Shown here one piece after another: positions 25,438 through 33,582 of a DNA stretch of 64,000 nucleotides. Location of the stretch: contig JACJOC010000098.1 in assembly GCA_014695345.1 (NCBI GenBank), positions 186,001-250,000 on the forward strand. The letters run 5' to 3'. Made by a program: the position numbers and the translations under genes. This DNA is from Cyanobacteria bacterium FACHB-471. Lineage in GTDB: Bacteria; Cyanobacteriota; Cyanobacteriia; Elainellales; Elainellaceae. Each line of letters begins with the position of its first letter. Position 1 is the first letter of the stretch. Below the pieces are notes generated by a model that worked only from the letters and a program-made list of their open reading frames with translations, was not told the origin of the DNA and did not search any database.

Positions 25438-25698
25438 ATGGCCCGACTCGATCCCTATACCCTACAGATGCAAATCACCCGCATGTTTGAGCAGGGTCAA
25501 TCGTTCTTTGCCACAACCAAGGTGCAAGACTGGCTGCGAGAGCGCAGCGAAGATCCAGCCGACTACGATATTTTGTTTCACCAACAGCCTGCCCCTCCTG
25601 GCTCAGGATTGGTGATGGTCGTGGAAATTGAACTGCGGCGGCGCGATGGGCAACCCGTTGATGCTTGGCTCCAGGAAGAAGTCAATCGTCACGGTTAA
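25438..25698 (+). CDS. Conserved small hypothetical protein
   Basis: An 86-residue protein starting MARLDPYTLQMQITRMFEQGQSFF. It looks like a compact alpha/beta domain: two helices (about 8-37), then DYDILFHQQP and GLVMVVEIELRRRDG as strands, and a terminal helix. There is no Cys cluster or signal peptide. I recognise it only as a type of small conserved cyanobacterial hypothetical. Its last four bases overlap the stop of the convergent SPFH-FHA gene, so the two messages are complementary at their ends. Confidence 0.7.
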   Translation: MARLDPYTLQMQITRMFEQGQSFFATTKVQDWLRERSEDPADYDILFHQQPAPPGSGLVMVVEIELRRRDGQPVDAWLQEEVNRHG

Positions 25699-26801
25699 GC
25701 CTCAAAGTTCCATTCCTGACTACCGATTTTAATTACATTGCCGGACATCAACCAGCGTGGCTGATGGGCAGTAAGCCGCTGTCCGTCGATAAAGGTGCCG
25801 TTAGAGCTGCCCAAGTCAATTAGTTGGTAGAGAATACCTCCTTCACTGTTCTGACGCACGATCTGAGCGTGATTGCGCGAACACAGCGGATCATCTAGAA
25901 CTAAGCTGTTCGCAGGTTCTCGCCCGATTGTGAAGGTAGCCGTTGGAAGCGGAATGCTCTGACCCGATGTGACGTGAACCAGACGGGCAAGCGCCCCATC
26001 ATCCGGGGCTAACATCGTTGCAGGTAGTGGCACCTTTTTAGCCGGAGGCAGATTAGTCGATGGGGTCGTCTGCCCCTGAAGCAAGACTGCCGTTTGCTCA
26101 AGCGCCACATCCGGCAACGGAATTGCTGCCTCGCCAGTTTGTCCTACGCGACCGGAAACGATATTTACCTGCTGAATTGGTGCTGCGGGGTGGGTCAAGC
26201 CAGCAATCTGTGCCTTTAGGGCTGCCTCGTGTTCGGCTTCCTGGCGAGCGCTCATGCCCTCGACCTGACGAATAATGCCGCGAGACTGCGGGAAGTTAAT
26301 GTCACTCACCCGCACGTCGTCCAGATTGAAGCCTAACAGGTAAAACGTGTCGATGTTCTCTAGCAAATATTGCCGAATCAAGACTCTGCCCTGATTGGTT
26401 AATTGATCAACCCGCAGTTGCCCCACCACGACCCCCAAGCAGTCTTTGACTGCGCTAGTCAGGGTCGCAAGCGGGTCGGATAGTTCCAGAGCAACCCGTT
26501 TGGGGTCGATCACCTGATACATCACGTTGAGTGAAATATTCACCAAAAACTGGTCTTGTGACAGAAAGTCCCCCTGCGATCGCACCTCCAGGTTACGGAC
26601 TTTGCTGTCTACCAAGATTAACTGACACTGCTCGATCCAGGGCAGCGCAAAGCTAAAATGTCTCCCTGGCTCTAGCTTTCGCACCAATTGCCCATTTTTG
26701 ACCAGCAGTCCTGCATAGCCTGCATTAATAAAGTCCATACTCCAGCCCGCCCAGCGTTCTGGGGTCAACGTTTTAATCAGCGGTGAAGAGGAATTGGACA
26801 T
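25695..26801 (-). CDS. SPFH/band-7 - FHA fusion protein
   Basis: A 368-residue fusion. Residues about 20-195 form an SPFH (band 7) domain: a short hydrophobic entry (YAGLLVKNGQLVRKLEPGRHFSFALPWIEQ), DSKVRNLEVRSQGDFLSQDQFLVNISLNVMYQV, and a helical arm with QEAEHEAALKAQI. A Pro/Thr/Gln-rich linker (about 200-265) follows. The C-terminus (about 275-368) is an FHA phosphothreonine-binding domain with the conserved FTIGRE, SRNHAQI and SSNGTFIDG residues. SPFH proteins scaffold membrane microdomains; FHA recruits kinase targets. The fusion suggests a scaffold for Ser/Thr phospho-signalling, but no kinase gene is nearby. Confidence 0.85.
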   Translation of the reverse strand: MSNSSSPLIKTLTPERWAGWSMDFINAGYAGLLVKNGQLVRKLEPGRHFSFALPWIEQCQLILVDSKVRNLEVRSQGDFLSQDQFLVNISLNVMYQVIDPKRVALELSDPLATLTSAVKDCLGVVVGQLRVDQLTNQGRVLIRQYLLENIDTFYLLGFNLDDVRVSDINFPQSRGIIRQVEGMSARQEAEHEAALKAQIAGLTHPAAPIQQVNIVSGRVGQTGEAAIPLPDVALEQTAVLLQGQTTPSTNLPPAKKVPLPATMLAPDDGALARLVHVTSGQSIPLPTATFTIGREPANSLVLDDPLCSRNHAQIVRQNSEGGILYQLIDLGSSNGTFIDGQRLTAHQPRWLMSGNVIKIGSQEWNFEA

Positions 26802-26988: not shown

Positions 26989-28377
26989 CTACATCGGTGC
27001 GAGATCGAGCGAGATGATGTCATTGGCAATCTCCTCCATTCGTTCTGCATCCTGCTTGGTAGTTGACGGGTAGCTTGCTACTTGCTCAAGCTGAGGGTTT
27101 GAAGAGGCAGTGGCGATCGGCTGTAGTACTTCTTCCCTGGCTGCTGATGGAGTTGCAGCAACTTGTTGATGCATTTCAATTGCTTTGGCGATCGCCTGCA
27201 TCCGTCGAGCCTGGTCACTGGTTACTCCATGAGTCGTATTGCCTAAACCGGGGGCATTCCAGCGATTTGTATCTGGATCTAAGAAAGAACGAGTCCGCGC
27301 CCACAGCACTGCATCCGAGCCGCGCAAGCCTACATCATGTGCCTCTTTCAGCCGATCTATGTAGCCACCTCGACTGAGTGCGGCACGGGGAGACTGATTT
27401 GCTAGATCAATCCCATTCAGTTCCTCTTCCAGCGTTAGGGTAATTCCTCGTTCCAGTGCTGCTCGTCTGAGGGTCTGAGCCTGCCCTCTGAGCCGCTCAA
27501 GCTGCTTTCGGTCAGCTTCATCAGGAGAATTTGCTCCATGCTGATACGAGAAAGTACCCAAGTTCCAAACTCCGTTGCCCGGATCGACATGTCCCTGGAA
27601 AGCCCAGGTTCTGCCACCGTCGGGGGTTCGTGTGCCCTCGGCGCTGCCAACCGCTTTTGCCACAATTGAGTTGGAGCCGTTCTGGAAGAGTGCGTCTAGG
27701 GAGGAGGTTGGGGGTTGGGGGTTGGGGGTTGGGGTTGCTTGACCGCCTTGCCCAGAGGGTGAAGCTTGTACTTGTGTAGGTGATGGCGTGGGGCTAGACG
27801 CTGTGGAGTTCAGCTCGAAGCTAAGTGCGGTTGGCTCGGCAGCGGCTCGAGTGGAAGGTTTGGGCTGGCGAATGGGAGCCTGGGCGAAAGATTGGGCAGG
27901 TTTGGGAGTAGGGGGTGCAGCAGTCAGAGTGGGTGCTGTTTCAAATTGAATAGGTTCGGGTTCAACTGATTCGGGCTGAATTTCGGTGGGTTGAACTTTG
28001 GGCTCGACAGGTTCAGGTTGAACTTCCGGTTGAGTGGGTTGGGGCGATCGCTCCGTCACATACACCTCTGGTGGCGGTGGCGGTAATTCTGCTATTGCCT
28101 TGGAAGTGTCTGCGACTCCAACAGGAACATGAGTTGCTTGCGTCGGAATCTGGAGTGGTTTGACTTGAGGTGTTGCTTGAGAAGTTGGAGTCGGCTTTGG
28201 AGGCTGAGCCAGCGGAGCAGAGGCAGGGGAGCTGGGGGCAACTGGAGCAAGGTCAAAGCTGATTTCAACCAATTCAGAGCTAGCAGCACTGGCATCGGGC
28301 GAAACTCCCAGGACAGCGGCGATCGCTAGCAGTGCTAACGCCATCAGGCGCACTACATACAGGTGAAAGTTGTTCAT
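26989..28377 (-). CDS. Secreted proline-rich protein with lysozyme-like C-terminal domain
   Basis: A 462-residue exported protein. A signal peptide covers about 1-31 (cleavage after ASA). Residues 45-225 are a low-complexity Pro/Gln/Thr/Glu linker, part of which is encoded by four GGTTGGG heptamers. The conserved part starts near residue 230: IVAKAVGSAEGTRTPDGG...AFQGHVDPGNG...NLGTFSYQHG, with Glu247 placed like the catalytic glutamate of lysozyme-fold enzymes, then a helical region to about 400. The lysozyme link is inferred from the EGTR context only. It is the last gene of a tight three-gene operon; 12 bases separate it from the lipoprotein gene. Confidence 0.72.
   Translation of the reverse strand: MNNFHLYVVRLMALALLAIAAVLGVSPDASAASSELVEISFDLAPVAPSSPASAPLAQPPKPTPTSQATPQVKPLQIPTQATHVPVGVADTSKAIAELPPPPPEVYVTERSPQPTQPEVQPEPVEPKVQPTEIQPESVEPEPIQFETAPTLTAAPPTPKPAQSFAQAPIRQPKPSTRAAAEPTALSFELNSTASSPTPSPTQVQASPSGQGGQATPTPNPQPPTSSLDALFQNGSNSIVAKAVGSAEGTRTPDGGRTWAFQGHVDPGNGVWNLGTFSYQHGANSPDEADRKQLERLRGQAQTLRRAALERGITLTLEEELNGIDLANQSPRAALSRGGYIDRLKEAHDVGLRGSDAVLWARTRSFLDPDTNRWNAPGLGNTTHGVTSDQARRMQAIAKAIEMHQQVAATPSAAREEVLQPIATASSNPQLEQVASYPSTTKQDAERMEEIANDIISLDLAPM
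27706..27733. repeat. Four GGTTGGG heptamers inside a coding region
   Basis: Four perfect copies of GGTTGGG followed by GTTG. On the coding (reverse) strand the repeat reads CCCAACC units and encodes Pro/Thr/Asn/Gln in the linker of the secreted 462-residue protein (about residues 214-224). It is a cyanobacterial STRR-type repeat that keeps the frame only because the linker tolerates any sequence; length changes would shift the frame. Confidence 0.85.
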
Positions 28378-28389
28378 TGGGGCTTCTCA

Positions 28390-28845
28390 CTATTTCAAAG
28401 TGCGTTCAAGAACATCAGTAGACGGTTCGACCATTGCCCATTTGCCATCGGGCTGTCGGCGCAGAGCTGCAAACTGGAGAAATTTAGCCGAAGCGATCGC
28501 CTCTCCCTGCTCTACCTGACCCAACTTAGGACGGCGCACTCCGCACAGCCTGAGCAGATAAGCCGGAACCTCTGGGCTAGAAAACACCACACAATCATCT
28601 CGGTGGGGTTCAACCTTGCCAGCGAATGGGGCATACACCTTACTGCCATCCAGCGCAATTGACACGTCTCCCAACCCACCTAAGATGCGGTGTCCAGCGA
28701 TTTCACTACCGGGTTGAAGCTGCCAATTCTGCTGGATCTGAAGCACACGCGGCGCAACGTTACTAGGTTTAGTACAACCCGCACCAACTAGCAGCAGCAC
28801 CGAAAGCAACACCCTACTGCTGAAACACAAACGAGTAGCCCGCAT
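28390..28845 (-). CDS. Lipoprotein with degenerate LytM/M23-like region
   Basis: A 151-residue protein from the ATG at 28845 (MRATRLCF), chosen because a GGGGGAGG ribosome site directly precedes it; an in-frame ATG 27 bases upstream exists. Residues 1-23 are a lipoprotein signal with lipobox VGAGC, lipidated at Cys24. The region IALDGSKVYAPFAGKVEPHRDDCVVFSS resembles the beta-hairpin core of M23 (LytM) endopeptidases, but the zinc-binding HxxxD and HxH motifs are not present, so it is probably non-catalytic. It overlaps the upstream gene by 32 bases and precedes the secreted protein gene by 12. Confidence 0.7.
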   Translation of the reverse strand: MRATRLCFSSRVLLSVLLLVGAGCTKPSNVAPRVLQIQQNWQLQPGSEIAGHRILGGLGDVSIALDGSKVYAPFAGKVEPHRDDCVVFSSPEVPAYLLRLCGVRRPKLGQVEQGEAIASAKFLQFAALRRQPDGKWAMVEPSTDVLERTLK

Positions 28846-29212
28846 ACTCCTCCCCCTCATACAGAACGACAAACCAGGTCTGCGGATCGAATGCCAGAGG
28901 ATAAGCTTCTCGCTTGGCCGTTACACCCTCGCGAATTTCTACGTCAGGCAATGTGCAATAGGGTTCGCTGACAATTTCGTGCACCGTTGATTTACTGTCT
29001 CGCTCCGACACGTTCAGCAGGCGAGCTAACTCATCTCTTGACAACACCGCCTGAGACTGCACAACTTCCTGACAGACATCTGGATCAGGTGGCGGCTGAA
29101 ACACAGTCCGTAAATCCACTAGTACACCGACGATCGCCAGCATTGAGCCTCCCGCCAAGAGGTACTTCACTGGACGGCGGGGTCTGCGCTTGCGGGGGGG
29201 ACGCTGATTCAT
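28814..29212 (-). CDS. Small single-pass membrane protein, first gene of the envelope operon
   Basis: A 132-residue protein from the ATG at 29212 (MNQRPPRKRRPRRP), supported by AAGGAG 10 bases upstream. A longer frame to 29353 starts inside a perfect palindrome and is unlikely. The very basic N-terminus (RKRRPRRP) precedes one membrane helix (about 17-35), leaving about 95 residues outside. That domain carries Cys near VCQEVV and PYCTLPD and looks helix-then-beta, with a possible short helix-turn-helix-like LSRDELARLLNVSE. No family recognised. It overlaps the lipoprotein start by 32 bases, so the three genes 26989-29212 form one operon. Confidence 0.68.
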   Translation of the reverse strand: MNQRPPRKRRPRRPVKYLLAGGSMLAIVGVLVDLRTVFQPPPDPDVCQEVVQSQAVLSRDELARLLNVSERDSKSTVHEIVSEPYCTLPDVEIREGVTAKREAYPLAFDPQTWFVVLYEGEEYAGYSFVFQQ

Positions 29213-29309
29213 CGTTCTGACTCCTTGGGGAGTGGGAGGGAATGAAGGAGAGGAGTAGGGACGACGCGATCGGGTTGACATGCTCTGCGGCTCCTGAGCG
29301 AAGGTGTAA

Positions 29310-29353
29310 TTGAGGGACATGCAGGGTAAAGCTTTACCCTGCATGTCCCTCAA
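29310..29353. repeat. 44-bp perfect palindrome with no loop
   Basis: The sequence 29310-29353 equals its own reverse complement over all 44 bases; the arms start TTGAGGGACATGCAGGG and meet at AAAG/CTTT. It lies about 100 bases upstream of the envelope operon start and about 300 bases before the divergent ABC permease gene. Such a zero-loop palindrome could be extruded as a cruciform, act as an operator, or be a recent palindromic insertion. Confidence 0.85.
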
Positions 29354-29655
29354 TCTGCAAGCCAGAATTGATTGACTGACCGTCGCGCTAAAAATCTAAG
29401 GACCGCTAAAATGCTTGAAGTTGCAAATCTGTCAGCCTTAAAACTTTTAGATGAAGCGGTTGAGCAGCGGACTATAGGGTACTGGTAGATAGGTTTTGTA
29501 GTGTACTAGTAGTACAACAGTAATATTTATTTAGTACAAGTGTACTATAAAACTAAAGTCAGATGACAGTCTCTCTTGACGAAAAATTTGTAAAACCCTG
29601 TTCGGAAATCCGATCGCCTGAAATAATGCTTTGAGAACTTACGCAAGCAGCCGAA
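29354..29655. other. 302-bp divergent promoter region
   Basis: Spacer between the palindrome upstream of the envelope operon and the ABC permease gene. No gene is present. The notable content is the pair of GTAC palindromes at 29502-29546 with a TATAAA box overlapping the second. Confidence 0.5.
29502..29546 (+). promoter_or_regulatory. Two LexA-like palindromes upstream of the ABC permease gene
   Basis: TGTACT-AGT-AGTACA (29502-29516) and AGTACA-AG-TGTACT (29533-29546) are inverted versions of one half-site; their centres are about 30 bases apart, close to three helical turns. The second matches the cyanobacterial LexA box RGTACNNNDGTWCB reported for Anabaena at every position. A TATAAA sequence (29546-29551) overlaps it by one base, so a bound protein would block the promoter of the gene at 29656. 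GntR-type repressors also use GTAC-centred palindromes. Confidence 0.55.
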
Positions 29656-30570: not shown

Positions 30571-31248
30571 ATAACTTGATTGGCTGATAGGTCTGCTCAT
30601 GTATTCGCATTTTCGTCAGCCTGCTGACTTAGATACCAAAACTGAGGCTGTTTAACAGCAGGGATTTCGCTTTGCGGTACCTGTTCTCCGGGTTTCCTGG
30701 TTTCACTTTGGGGATCATCTGCTGAATGCTATGCCCTTACAGACGACAGTTGCTACTTTTCAAATCTCTTAAAGGTTTGGCTACTTCAAACATTGGAGTA
30801 GTATGAAACCGAAACGTTATCATTCCTGAAACTTTTTGCTTTCAAGAGATATACTGCTGTTTTAACAGAATGTCTGAGAAGTAGCTAATGTCTTGTGTAG
30901 GGACGAAGCATTCGGTAGGCGATCGCCTGAAATTAGAGGAAACTTTGCCCGAATGCTTTGACCCTATGAGTATCTCGGACAAATTGAGACTTTTCAGACA
31001 TCTTTTAATATATATTTCTAATCTCTTTGAATGTTTATCTCTTTAACTAGAAAAATAGTTAATCAACAATTAAGCAATTATTTTTGTCATTAAGCAATAG
31101 ACTGATTAAACTTAACACCATGCCTAACGACGGCTTCTGGCTCTATTTGTAAGATATTGCACGTGATAGACCGCTGTGTGTAGCAGCAAGTCTATCGTCT
31201 AACCCGCCGGAATGTGGCAGTAGAAGATCCATCAAGTTACTCTGGTTG
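30571..31248. other. ~680-bp spacer with the second 71-bp element
   Basis: No open frame here looks protein-like. Contents: a 13-base palindrome GCTGTTTAACAGC (30647-30659), the 71-bp MITE-like element at 30897-30967, and an AT-rich stretch from 31010 to 31110, probably the promoter region of the AMIN protein gene. No RNA gene is recognisable. Confidence 0.5.
30897..30967. mobile_element. 71-bp MITE-like element, copy 2
   Basis: Ends GTAGGGACGAAGCATTCGG and CCGAATGCTTTGACCCTAT match those of the element at 21839-21909, as does the 71-base length. The interior contains a HIP1 octamer. The paired ends are 19 bases with a few mismatches. Identity of size and ends at two loci 9 kb apart supports a mobile element rather than chance. 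Confidence 0.7.
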
Positions 31249-31260
31249 ATGCGCGGAACA

Positions 31261-33582
31261 ATGCGAAAAGCAAAATTTGTGCGAGTTGGATTTAGCTTAG
31301 GTTTGGCAACATTAACTGCCATTAGCAATCCATTGTTGAGGTTGAGCCTGATAGGAATTGGGGCAATCGCTCCTTTCTCTGCCATTGCTCCCGCAGAAGC
31401 AGCCACATTAACCAACTGGCAGTTTGACCCTAACACCCGTGAGCTTCGAGTTACAGTGCCAGAGGGCACCACTCCCCGCTACTTTTTGTTGGCAGAGCCC
31501 CCCCGGATTGTCCTAGATTTGCCCAATACTCAGATTGGGGCTGTACCAGAGCAGCAAGTGTTTAATGGGGCAGTGCGTCAAATTCGAGTGGGTCAGTTTC
31601 AACCTGGGCTAACGCGAATTGTGATTGAACTGGTTGCAGATGTCGAGTTTGCTCCAGGACAGGTGGAACTGCGTCAAGAAGGCGATCGCTGGATACTACG
31701 TCCTTTATTGACCGATGGATCTGCTGCACCAGATGTTGCAACTGCCCCTGTCCAACCTGCTCCCGTTCAGCCGCCACACCCAGAGGTGCAAGCATCCGAC
31801 GCTGGGACAACAGAAGTCATTCCTGAGACACCTGCACCAGAAACGACAGCGATCGCCCCTTCTCCAGCACCTCAACCTGAGACGACAGCAGCAGAATTAG
31901 GGAACGACTTGCCTCAGCTTAATCCTGCTCCTGTCGTTCCTGACACGTCACCTAATATTTTCGATGCCAATTCTGATGTCCCAGAGGTGATTCCAGAAAC
32001 TGATTCAGCGGTAACTCCCGAATCTGAGACAACGGCGGATGTAGTTCCAGAGTTACCATCAGCAGAGTTACCATCAGCAGAGTTACCGCCTTTGGAACCG
32101 GGGGCACTGGAAATTCCAGTCGAGCCTGCTTCAGAAGTACCCGAAAACCTGGAATTGGTGCCTCCCACCAGTGAAACAGAACCCGATGGCGAATCTGTTG
32201 CCGAACGGGTCGAGCCTGAGGAGAGTGAACAGGATTTGCCCGCTGAGCTGCCAGAAAACTTAGCAAATTCTGATGACGTGGCAACTGAACCTACTTCTCA
32301 AGACGCTCAGGAGGGTGAAGTTAGTTCTGAGGAAGATGAGGCGATCGCGCTAGAAGCTGAAGAACCCATCAACGAAGCAGTCTCACCGACACCAGAACTT
32401 CCGTCAGCAGCAAGCTCACCTCAAATTGAAATTGATCAACCTGAAGCTCAACCCTCACCAGCCCAGAGCGCTGAAGCTGAGCAAAATTTTGCAGTGCCAG
32501 TGCAAGAGGAACCCGAAGCACGGGAAGAGATTATGACGCTTGAGCCAGGAGCGCAGACGGAGCCGGAGGCGATCGCCCCAGAGCCCGAAATGCAGGAAGA
32601 ATCAGAGCCGATCGCTCTAGAGTCGGACGGGCAAGCACCAGAGGCGATCGCACCAGCCCCACAAATTCCTAGAGCATTACCTCCAGCAACTTTTTCGACT
32701 AGCCCGTCGGTTACAGTTGCGGTGCCGCCCCTCAGCCAAGCGCCAAGCAATCCAACCGTTGTGGAACCTCCCGGAAATACGCCTGTCGCTCCGTCTCAAT
32801 CGCCGCCACCAGCCGCCCTCCCCCCAGCGACCTTCTCGCCCAATCCAACGAGTCAAGTTAGTGTTCCACCCGTATCCACAATTCCCAGCCCAACTGCGGC
32901 TGCGTCAGCATCCCCTGCCCCGTCAGAAGATGAAATTGAATTTGGGCGACCCATATCTAGGCAACCTGACAGTCCGCCACCTTCTTCAGCTTCAACCGCA
33001 ACTGCACCCCAGGACGATTTGTCAGAAAATGAGCTACCAGAGAATGATTTACCTGACCAAAACGTCTTCTCTGACCAAAACGTGGCAGTTGCTCCCACTT
33101 CGCCTAACATCTTGCTGCCTTCAGGGACGACACTGAGTTTGCGCTATCCGGGAGAAACCAGCTTACCTTTGGAGTCAGGTGTGCCACGCCAAGAGGTGCT
33201 GTTGCTCGATCAGCCTGTTCTCGATCGCAACGGCAACCTGATTGCAGAAGCGGGGACTCAGGTAATCGGACGGTTTGAAACGGGCAGTCAGGGCAGCCAA
33301 TTTATTGCGCAAGCAATTGCCTTACAGGGGCAGAACGTTTTGCTAGAGGCAGAATCAGCAACGTTAGCGGGCGATCGCGAAGTTTCTGAAGATATTTTGC
33401 TGCAAAACTCTGCCTTGGGTGCCTTAGCGCTAACCGTGTTAGGTGGCTTCACTGGAATCGGGCTACTGGGCGGACTTGCGGCGGGTGCGACTGCGACCTA
33501 TTTAACTGCTCCTCAGCCAGCCATCATTCAGCCCAACCAGATCGTAGAAGTGCGTCTGACCGAAGATCTGCCCCGACCATAG
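31261..33582 (+). CDS. AMIN domain protein with TrbI/VirB10-like C-terminus
   Basis: A 773-residue exported protein from the ATG at 31261 (MRKAKFVRVG); two in-frame starts lie just upstream. The signal sequence reaches about residue 45. An AMIN domain (about 48-140) follows with LTNWQFDPNTRELRVTVPEGTTPRYFLLAEPPRIVLDLPNT; AMIN domains bind peptidoglycan. Residues about 150-610 are a Pro/Glu/Ala/Ser low-complexity linker. The C-terminus (about 615-770) has SGTTLSLRYPGE...PVLDRNGNLIAEAGTQVIGRF, resembling the beta-barrel of TrbI/VirB10 proteins, and a Gly/Ala hydrophobic segment. It likely anchors to the cell wall and spans the periplasm. Confidence 0.85.
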   Translation: MRKAKFVRVGFSLGLATLTAISNPLLRLSLIGIGAIAPFSAIAPAEAATLTNWQFDPNTRELRVTVPEGTTPRYFLLAEPPRIVLDLPNTQIGAVPEQQVFNGAVRQIRVGQFQPGLTRIVIELVADVEFAPGQVELRQEGDRWILRPLLTDGSAAPDVATAPVQPAPVQPPHPEVQASDAGTTEVIPETPAPETTAIAPSPAPQPETTAAELGNDLPQLNPAPVVPDTSPNIFDANSDVPEVIPETDSAVTPESETTADVVPELPSAELPSAELPPLEPGALEIPVEPASEVPENLELVPPTSETEPDGESVAERVEPEESEQDLPAELPENLANSDDVATEPTSQDAQEGEVSSEEDEAIALEAEEPINEAVSPTPELPSAASSPQIEIDQPEAQPSPAQSAEAEQNFAVPVQEEPEAREEIMTLEPGAQTEPEAIAPEPEMQEESEPIALESDGQAPEAIAPAPQIPRALPPATFSTSPSVTVAVPPLSQAPSNPTVVEPPGNTPVAPSQSPPPAALPPATFSPNPTSQVSVPPVSTIPSPTAAASASPAPSEDEIEFGRPISRQPDSPPPSSASTATAPQDDLSENELPENDLPDQNVFSDQNVAVAPTSPNILLPSGTTLSLRYPGETSLPLESGVPRQEVLLLDQPVLDRNGNLIAEAGTQVIGRFETGSQGSQFIAQAIALQGQNVLLEAESATLAGDREVSEDILLQNSALGALALTVLGGFTGIGLLGGLAAGATATYLTAPQPAIIQPNQIVEVRLTEDLPRP

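Follow-up and report, generated by a model that had tools for sequence, protein, structure and literature searches.

The locus and its genes

The window, that is, the whole stretch of 64,000 nucleotides analysed here from Cyanobacteria bacterium FACHB-471, carries on its minus strand three closely packed open reading frames, referred to as G1, G2 and G3; all features described below within these genes lie on the same strand. G1 (28814–29212) encodes 132 aa and, from its open reading frame and translation, a basic single-pass membrane protein. G2 (28390–28860) encodes 156 aa, or 151 aa if the alternative start at 28845 is used, and is predicted to be a lipoprotein with a non-catalytic LytM/M23 domain. 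G3 (26989–28377), of 462 aa, combines a signal peptide, a Pro-rich linker, a predicted lysozyme-superfamily domain and a C-terminal tail. G2 overlaps G1 by 47 bases (start 28860) or 32 bases (start 28845), and G3 begins 12 bases past G2. The operon is flanked by a divergent ABC-transporter permease gene on one side and by an SPFH-FHA gene on the other.

When compared with the nearest relative (L091), dN/dS amounts to 0.085 for G1, 0.093 for G2 and 0.19 for G3, whose end domain alone gives 0.058. Since these ratios are low and homologues of each gene are found in 45–46 of 60 related genomes, it is confirmed that G1, G2 and G3 are real genes under purifying selection and not chance open reading frames. 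An earlier note, made from the sequence alone, had described a reverse-strand trio whose members overlap or lie within 12 bases of one another, and the positions, the dN/dS values and the homologues in relatives all uphold it. Its description as a three-gene operon is correct for the window copy and does not extend to relatives, where the unit usually consists of four genes. Single-protein searches of Pfam, PHROGs and NCBIfam gave nothing above cut-off for G1, G2 or G3, and a sequence search of the PDB gave no usable match for any of them.

G1 has a basic N-terminus followed by one membrane helix at about residues 17–37, as judged by eye, in agreement with the basic single-pass protein that had been proposed from the sequence. 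According to the positive-inside rule, the N-terminus is predicted to lie inside, with a small domain on the extracytoplasmic side. Two cysteines, C47 and C86, are invariant in 16 aligned relatives, and neither the PDB nor Pfam provides a match by sequence. A resemblance to BamE, suspected by eye, found no support in an indirect check: the Pfam BamE model matches nothing in 11 related genomes. The fourth gene, G0, is absent at the window copy and lies upstream of G1 in 55 of 80 named loci, which belong mostly to Leptolyngbya-type filamentous cyanobacteria. It encodes about 336 aa with two C-terminal membrane helices, again by eye, and has no convincing Pfam match.

Inheritance of the cassette

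Among 60 related genomes, G3 is present in 46, G2 in 45 and G1 in 45; all three occur together in 44, none in 13 and a partial set in 3. The co-occurrence that the earlier note had proposed to check is thus apparent from these counts, and in relatives the genes are mostly adjacent. The association between G2 and G3 reaches a Fisher p of 9e-13 with kinship ignored, a figure that overstates the linkage because relatives are not independent. The order G1-G2-G3 is kept in most of the 80 named loci. Counting against a tight unit, G2 is present but unlinked from G1 and G3 in a few genomes (G007, G025).

Across the phylum, only 21 of 292 genomes carry a G3-type domain, so the cassette is an accessory of part of the cyanobacteria and not a core protein set. 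Where present, the cassettes are conserved and cluster vertically within one large clade, and several genomes carry two of them, often as two diverged copies. The genome studied here is one with a second operon (L249), in which G0, G1, G2 and G3 follow, in that order, a gene pair for ECF sigma and zf-HC2 anti-sigma proteins; the position of the sigma/anti-sigma pair ahead of the genes suggests stress control of the cassette. A third G3-type domain lies elsewhere in the same genome (L250), adjoining a PG_binding_1 protein.

G2, a LytM-type lipoprotein without its zinc site

G2 carries a lipoprotein signal, which predicts an extracytoplasmic location. The lipidation residue, Cys29 (28774–28776), is kept in more than 90% of 32 relatives and is invariant in 14; two further cysteines are invariant besides it. 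In profile comparisons with hhalign, G2 matches M23 with a probability of 95.6% when 5 sequences are used and 93.4% with 13, while unrelated pairings used as controls gave 0.0–1.7%. Matches of the G2 profile to 'Cake' designed proteins were discarded, as they cover 34 residues of designed repeats and are absent from the fold search. The AlphaFold2 model (pLDDT 92) has among its best matches the non-catalytic LytM domains of EnvC (4bh5, Z 9.8, rmsd 1.9 over 90 residues), DipM (7qrl, Z 9.8), SpoIIQ (Z 8.8) and PrgK (Z 8.6), the last of which (8s0u) is also the top Foldseek match. In total, 46 chains match G2 at a Z of at least 8; those listed are LytM/M23 proteins, and the best structures are nearly all of this type.

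The HxGxD zinc motif is absent from all 59 scorable relatives of G2, which have [GS]-L-G-D-[IV] in its place, so that none of them retains either of the first two zinc ligands. The last ligand position is occupied by His in 25 of 60 relatives and by Gln in 23, and this retention of His in about half of the relatives is a point against the peptidoglycan-cutting unit proposed below. Taken from model and alignment, G2 is a LytM/M23-fold lipoprotein that has lost its zinc motif, as the degenerate M23-like lipoprotein of the earlier note already implied.

The end domain of G3

The end domain of G3 (residues 226–405; 27163–27702) is modelled by AlphaFold2 with a pLDDT of about 97 over model residues 10–192. 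In VIA-align, its best match is P22 lysozyme (Z 8.9, with 136 residues aligned at an rmsd of 3.9); GH24 muramidases come next, and then the muramidase domain of SpmX (6h9d, Z 7.8), a GH46 chitosanase and MltE/MltF. Both Foldseek and VIA-align rank lysozyme-superfamily enzymes first, with no Foldseek match to the PDB below an E-value of 0.001 and with VIA-align scores (Z 8–9) that are moderate. When a viral structure library was searched, the best match was a marine phage protein already known by sequence, with phage lysozymes next.

The alignment combines the window copy with 32 relatives of cyanobacterial or viral origin that are 25–69% identical. Four residues are invariant in all 33 sequences: E31, D49, N56 and G58 of the alignment, corresponding to Glu247, Asp265, Asn272 and Gly274 of G3. 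They follow the GH24 order Glu-Asp-Thr-x-Gly with Asn instead of Thr. Glu247 (27637–27639), located where the first core helix ends, is the candidate catalytic residue. As residue 1 of T4 lysozyme pairs with model residue 21, and a helix spans 22–31 in the model, E31 would fall on E11 of T4 lysozyme provided that the helix is ungapped. The lysozyme-like region first noticed in the translation of G3 is therefore seen in the model as a lysozyme-superfamily fold with an invariant candidate catalytic Glu.

Despite this likeness, the domain is difficult to accommodate within GH24. G3 shares with the phage lysozymes of P22, T4 and R21, and with SpmX, the fold and the order of Glu, Asp, polar residue and Gly in the active-site hairpin. 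In contrast, the comparison with a profile of 12 GH24 sequences from related genomes gave an hhalign probability of only 0.3%, so that descent from cyanobacterial GH24 lysozymes was not found at the sequence level, and none of the 33 members matches the Pfam Phage_lysozyme model (PF00959). Moreover, the Glu-Asp-Thr triad is incomplete, with Glu and Asp present and an invariant Asn at the Thr position, and Glu and Asp are 18 residues apart, versus 9 in T4. Because it has neither a profile link to GH24 nor a match to a Pfam model, the G3 domain is filed as a separate, undescribed family of the lysozyme superfamily; Pfam, NCBIfam, the PHROGs and the PDB hold no sequence family for it. Its enzyme class we infer from the fold, the invariant residues and the context in which the domain is found.

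The linker of G3 and its repeated peptides

Between the signal peptide and the end domain extends the long Pro-rich linker that the earlier note had reported, here delimited to residues 34–215 (27733–28278), with 22% Pro versus 3% in the end domain. A short motif of the type [LI][SDN]F[DE]L repeats along the linker and the tail. In the window copy there are three candidate docking peptides: ISFDLAP (residues 39–45; 28243–28263), LSFELNS (residues 185–191; 27805–27825) and ISLDLAP (residues 455–461; 26995–27015), of a kind enriched in the linkers and tails of loci with G2. The third lies at the C-terminus, after a predicted helix.

In 62 loci with an adjacent G2, 64 sites were counted versus 9.3 expected from shuffled linkers and tails, which represents an approximately sevenfold enrichment. 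The motif is found in 47 of these 62 loci but in only 2 of the 14 that lack an adjacent G2 (Fisher p 3e-5). The pattern was defined after the sequences had been seen, and these figures rest on the same sequences. On a tree of the G3 domain, the presence of G2 changes 8 times and that of the motif 11 times. The four supported independent pairs, of which an average of 2.9 show motif and G2 changing together and 0.1 show them in opposition, are too few for the link to be significant after phylogenetic control (median p 0.25). The distribution of the peptides nevertheless suggests that they are candidate docking sites for G2.

G3-type domains in phages, plasmids and M23 fusions

Members of the G3 family occur on cyanobacterial chromosomes as well as in phages and plasmids. 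Microcoleus phage My-WqHQDG has a stand-alone homologue of the domain located between an amidase gene and two M23 endopeptidase genes, one of which itself starts with the second half of a G3-type domain. In marine phages, the domain forms the C-terminal end of proteins of about 1000 aa, encoded in the reference genome near or adjoining the terminase gene. Wall-cutting domains can also be part of the large virion proteins of T7-like phages. A scan of viral sequences with the stand-alone phage protein as query found nothing. One viral contig (L217, 889–8769) holds an open frame of 2627 aa with a G3-type domain in its interior.

Fusions to peptidases are found as well. A Leptolyngbya plasmid protein joins an M23 peptidase whose HxGxD motif is intact to a G3-type domain, with M23 first, and the viral contig L214 encodes the reverse arrangement, with the domain first and HxGxD again intact. 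Contig L180 carries an M23 gene one gene upstream of that for the G3-type domain. Given these two fusions and the nearby M23 gene, the pairing of the two domains recurs, with a peptidase that is apparently intact in mobile elements and dead in the chromosomal operon.

A putative peptidoglycan-cutting unit

The interpretation that we favour, with a probability of roughly 0.6, is that G3, as a muramidase or lytic transglycosylase, G2, as a LytM-type regulator, and G1, as a membrane partner, constitute a self-contained peptidoglycan-cutting unit. The signal peptide would export G3, whose end domain would act in the periplasm as the cutter of glycan strands. Such an activity, whether of a muramidase or of a lytic transglycosylase, would fit the company that the domain keeps in a phage lysis cassette, in virion-type proteins and in M23 fusions. 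Glu247 would act as proton donor, with Asp265 and Asn272 where phage lysozymes have Asp and Thr. The lipid-anchored G2 might bind the hydrolase in its groove and recruit it or switch it, by analogy with EnvC and DipM, and G3 may reach G2 through the repeated peptides on its flexible linker and at its C-terminus. G1, together with G0 in most relatives, would hold the unit at the inner membrane. The predicted folds and the co-occurrence support the cell-wall machine that the earlier note had sketched, with putative roles for its anchor, activator and muralytic enzyme; G0, the second operon, the phage and plasmid relatives and the repeated peptides are additions to that sketch. Within this scheme, we infer catalysis by G3, the binding of G2 to G3, the direction of regulation and the role of G1. 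The mismatch with the GH24 profile, the replacement of Thr by Asn and the moderate Z scores all count against a wall-cutting unit.

A more specific version, which can only be tentative and falls clearly short of even odds, holds that an undescribed glycan-cleaving family works with an M23 partner turned into a zinc-less lipoprotein switch, which grips the FDL-type peptides of the muramidase. If so, the chromosomal operon would have made a regulated two-part enzyme out of an association that recurs with active M23 peptidases.

A LytM-regulated wall hydrolase is already known, and the new element is the undescribed family of the lysozyme superfamily. EnvC and NlpD, like G2, have a LytM fold that is non-catalytic and predicted or known to face the periplasm. 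Amidases are the targets known for these two, EnvC being a coiled-coil protein worked by FtsEX, and to our knowledge neither of them is encoded with a lysozyme-type enzyme. Control of wall hydrolases by dead LytM domains has been described mainly for amidases, with DipM as a case involving a lytic transglycosylase and PrgK as one with an intramolecular muramidase. Caulobacter DipM, whose partners are SdpA/SdpB and AmiC, uses the groove of its LytM domain to bind SdpA and AmiC, and it stimulates the two enzymes (PMC10336132). DipM and G2 share a catalytically inactive LytM domain, which in DipM is the part that recognises and activates SdpA, a soluble lytic transglycosylase (PMC10336132). The enzymes that DipM works with, lytic transglycosylases and an amidase, belong to families other than that of G3, which carries the repeated linker motifs; unlike DipM, G2 is a short lipoprotein with no additional domains and is co-inherited with its presumed enzyme in one operon. 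In PrgK, from the pCF10 conjugation system, a degenerate LytM domain is coupled to a muramidase, and LytM and CHAP domains lower its activity (PMC11323569). The pairing of a degenerate, metal-free LytM domain with a muramidase would be common to PrgK and to G2/G3, but PrgK unites the two with CHAP in a single protein of a Gram-positive T4SS, its muramidase is of another sequence family, and separate chromosomal genes are involved here.

The PrgK case raises the alternative that G2, alone or together with G1, acts as a brake and restrains the G3 muramidase for as long as its activity is not required. In support of it, the PrgK LytM domain (8s0u), which together with CHAP lowers the muramidase activity of its own protein (PMC11323569), is the best Foldseek match of G2, and encoding a hydrolase with a membrane-anchored partner would be a common guard against self-damage. 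DipM, equally close in fold (Z 9.8), activates instead, and a brake makes those G3 copies that lack an adjacent G2 harder to explain, even if several of the genomes concerned have G2 elsewhere. We regard this as unlikely, though the best of the alternatives.

It could also be argued that G3, in the manner of SpmX with its co-opted muramidase domain, is a non-enzymatic scaffold that binds peptidoglycan, and that G1, G2 and G3 form a structural envelope complex. SpmX is indeed among the best fold matches of G3 (6h9d, Z 7.8), the GH24 Thr is replaced by Asn, and a long disordered linker with repeated peptides would suit a scaffold. Nevertheless, Glu and Asp are invariant from the cyanobacterial operons to phage lysis-cassette and virion proteins, and the phage members keep Asn just as strictly, which marks this residue as a trait of the family and not as a sign of decay; together with the dN/dS of 0.058 in the domain, these observations render a scaffold improbable. 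Least plausible of all is that mobile elements gave rise to the cassette as an antagonism or lysis module, in which G3 would be a wall-cutting effector and G2 and G1 would protect the producer: the domain is common to phages and plasmids and the cassette is accessory (21 of 292 phylum genomes), but the cassettes are conserved, vertically clustered in one large clade, of low dN/dS and often present as two diverged copies, G3 has an ordinary signal peptide with no delivery module nearby, and the fold of G2 is that of hydrolase regulators and not of a known lysozyme inhibitor.

If the preferred reading of a peptidoglycan-cutting unit is right, a regulator and its presumed muramidase travel as one cassette across filamentous cyanobacteria, organisms whose septal wall biology is unlike that of model Gram-negatives. 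A literature search, which reached few subscription journals, found no paper on the G1-G2-G3 cassette. As the domain is present in phage lysis and virion-type proteins, naming its family would annotate many unknown lysins.

Other features around the cassettes

Several genes were considered as partners from their position and set aside as neighbours of limited spread: ExbB/ExbD (4 loci), Fur (17), MlaE (16) and dnaN/dnaA (10–11 loci). In the four loci concerned (L123, L145, L169 and L170), the ExbB and ExbD genes lie directly downstream of G3. The second operon of the genome studied here (L249, 7249–8751) follows directly behind the ECF sigma factor and zf-HC2 anti-sigma genes. In genome G025 (contig 6, at about 4.01 Mb; L251, 3300–6150), a second copy of the G1–G3 region is scrambled into about 12 shards of 68–284 bases in both orientations, most of which share 92–100% identity with each other and with the intact copy (L252).

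Within the window itself, a perfect palindrome of 46 bases (29309–29354), with 23-base arms and no loop, is located about 100 bases upstream of G1 and is unique in the genome. Further on, between G1 and the divergent ABC permease gene, two operator-like palindromes of TAGTACA/TGTACTA (29502–29547) are possibly the site of a sugar-responsive repressor. The SPFH-FHA gene (25695–26801) encodes an unusual pairing of an N-terminal SPFH/Band 7 domain with a C-terminal FHA domain. Finally, a protein of 778 aa (31246–33582) contains an AMIN domain and a very long acidic Pro-rich linker, and its C-terminal part resembles, by eye, a VirB10/TrbI domain.
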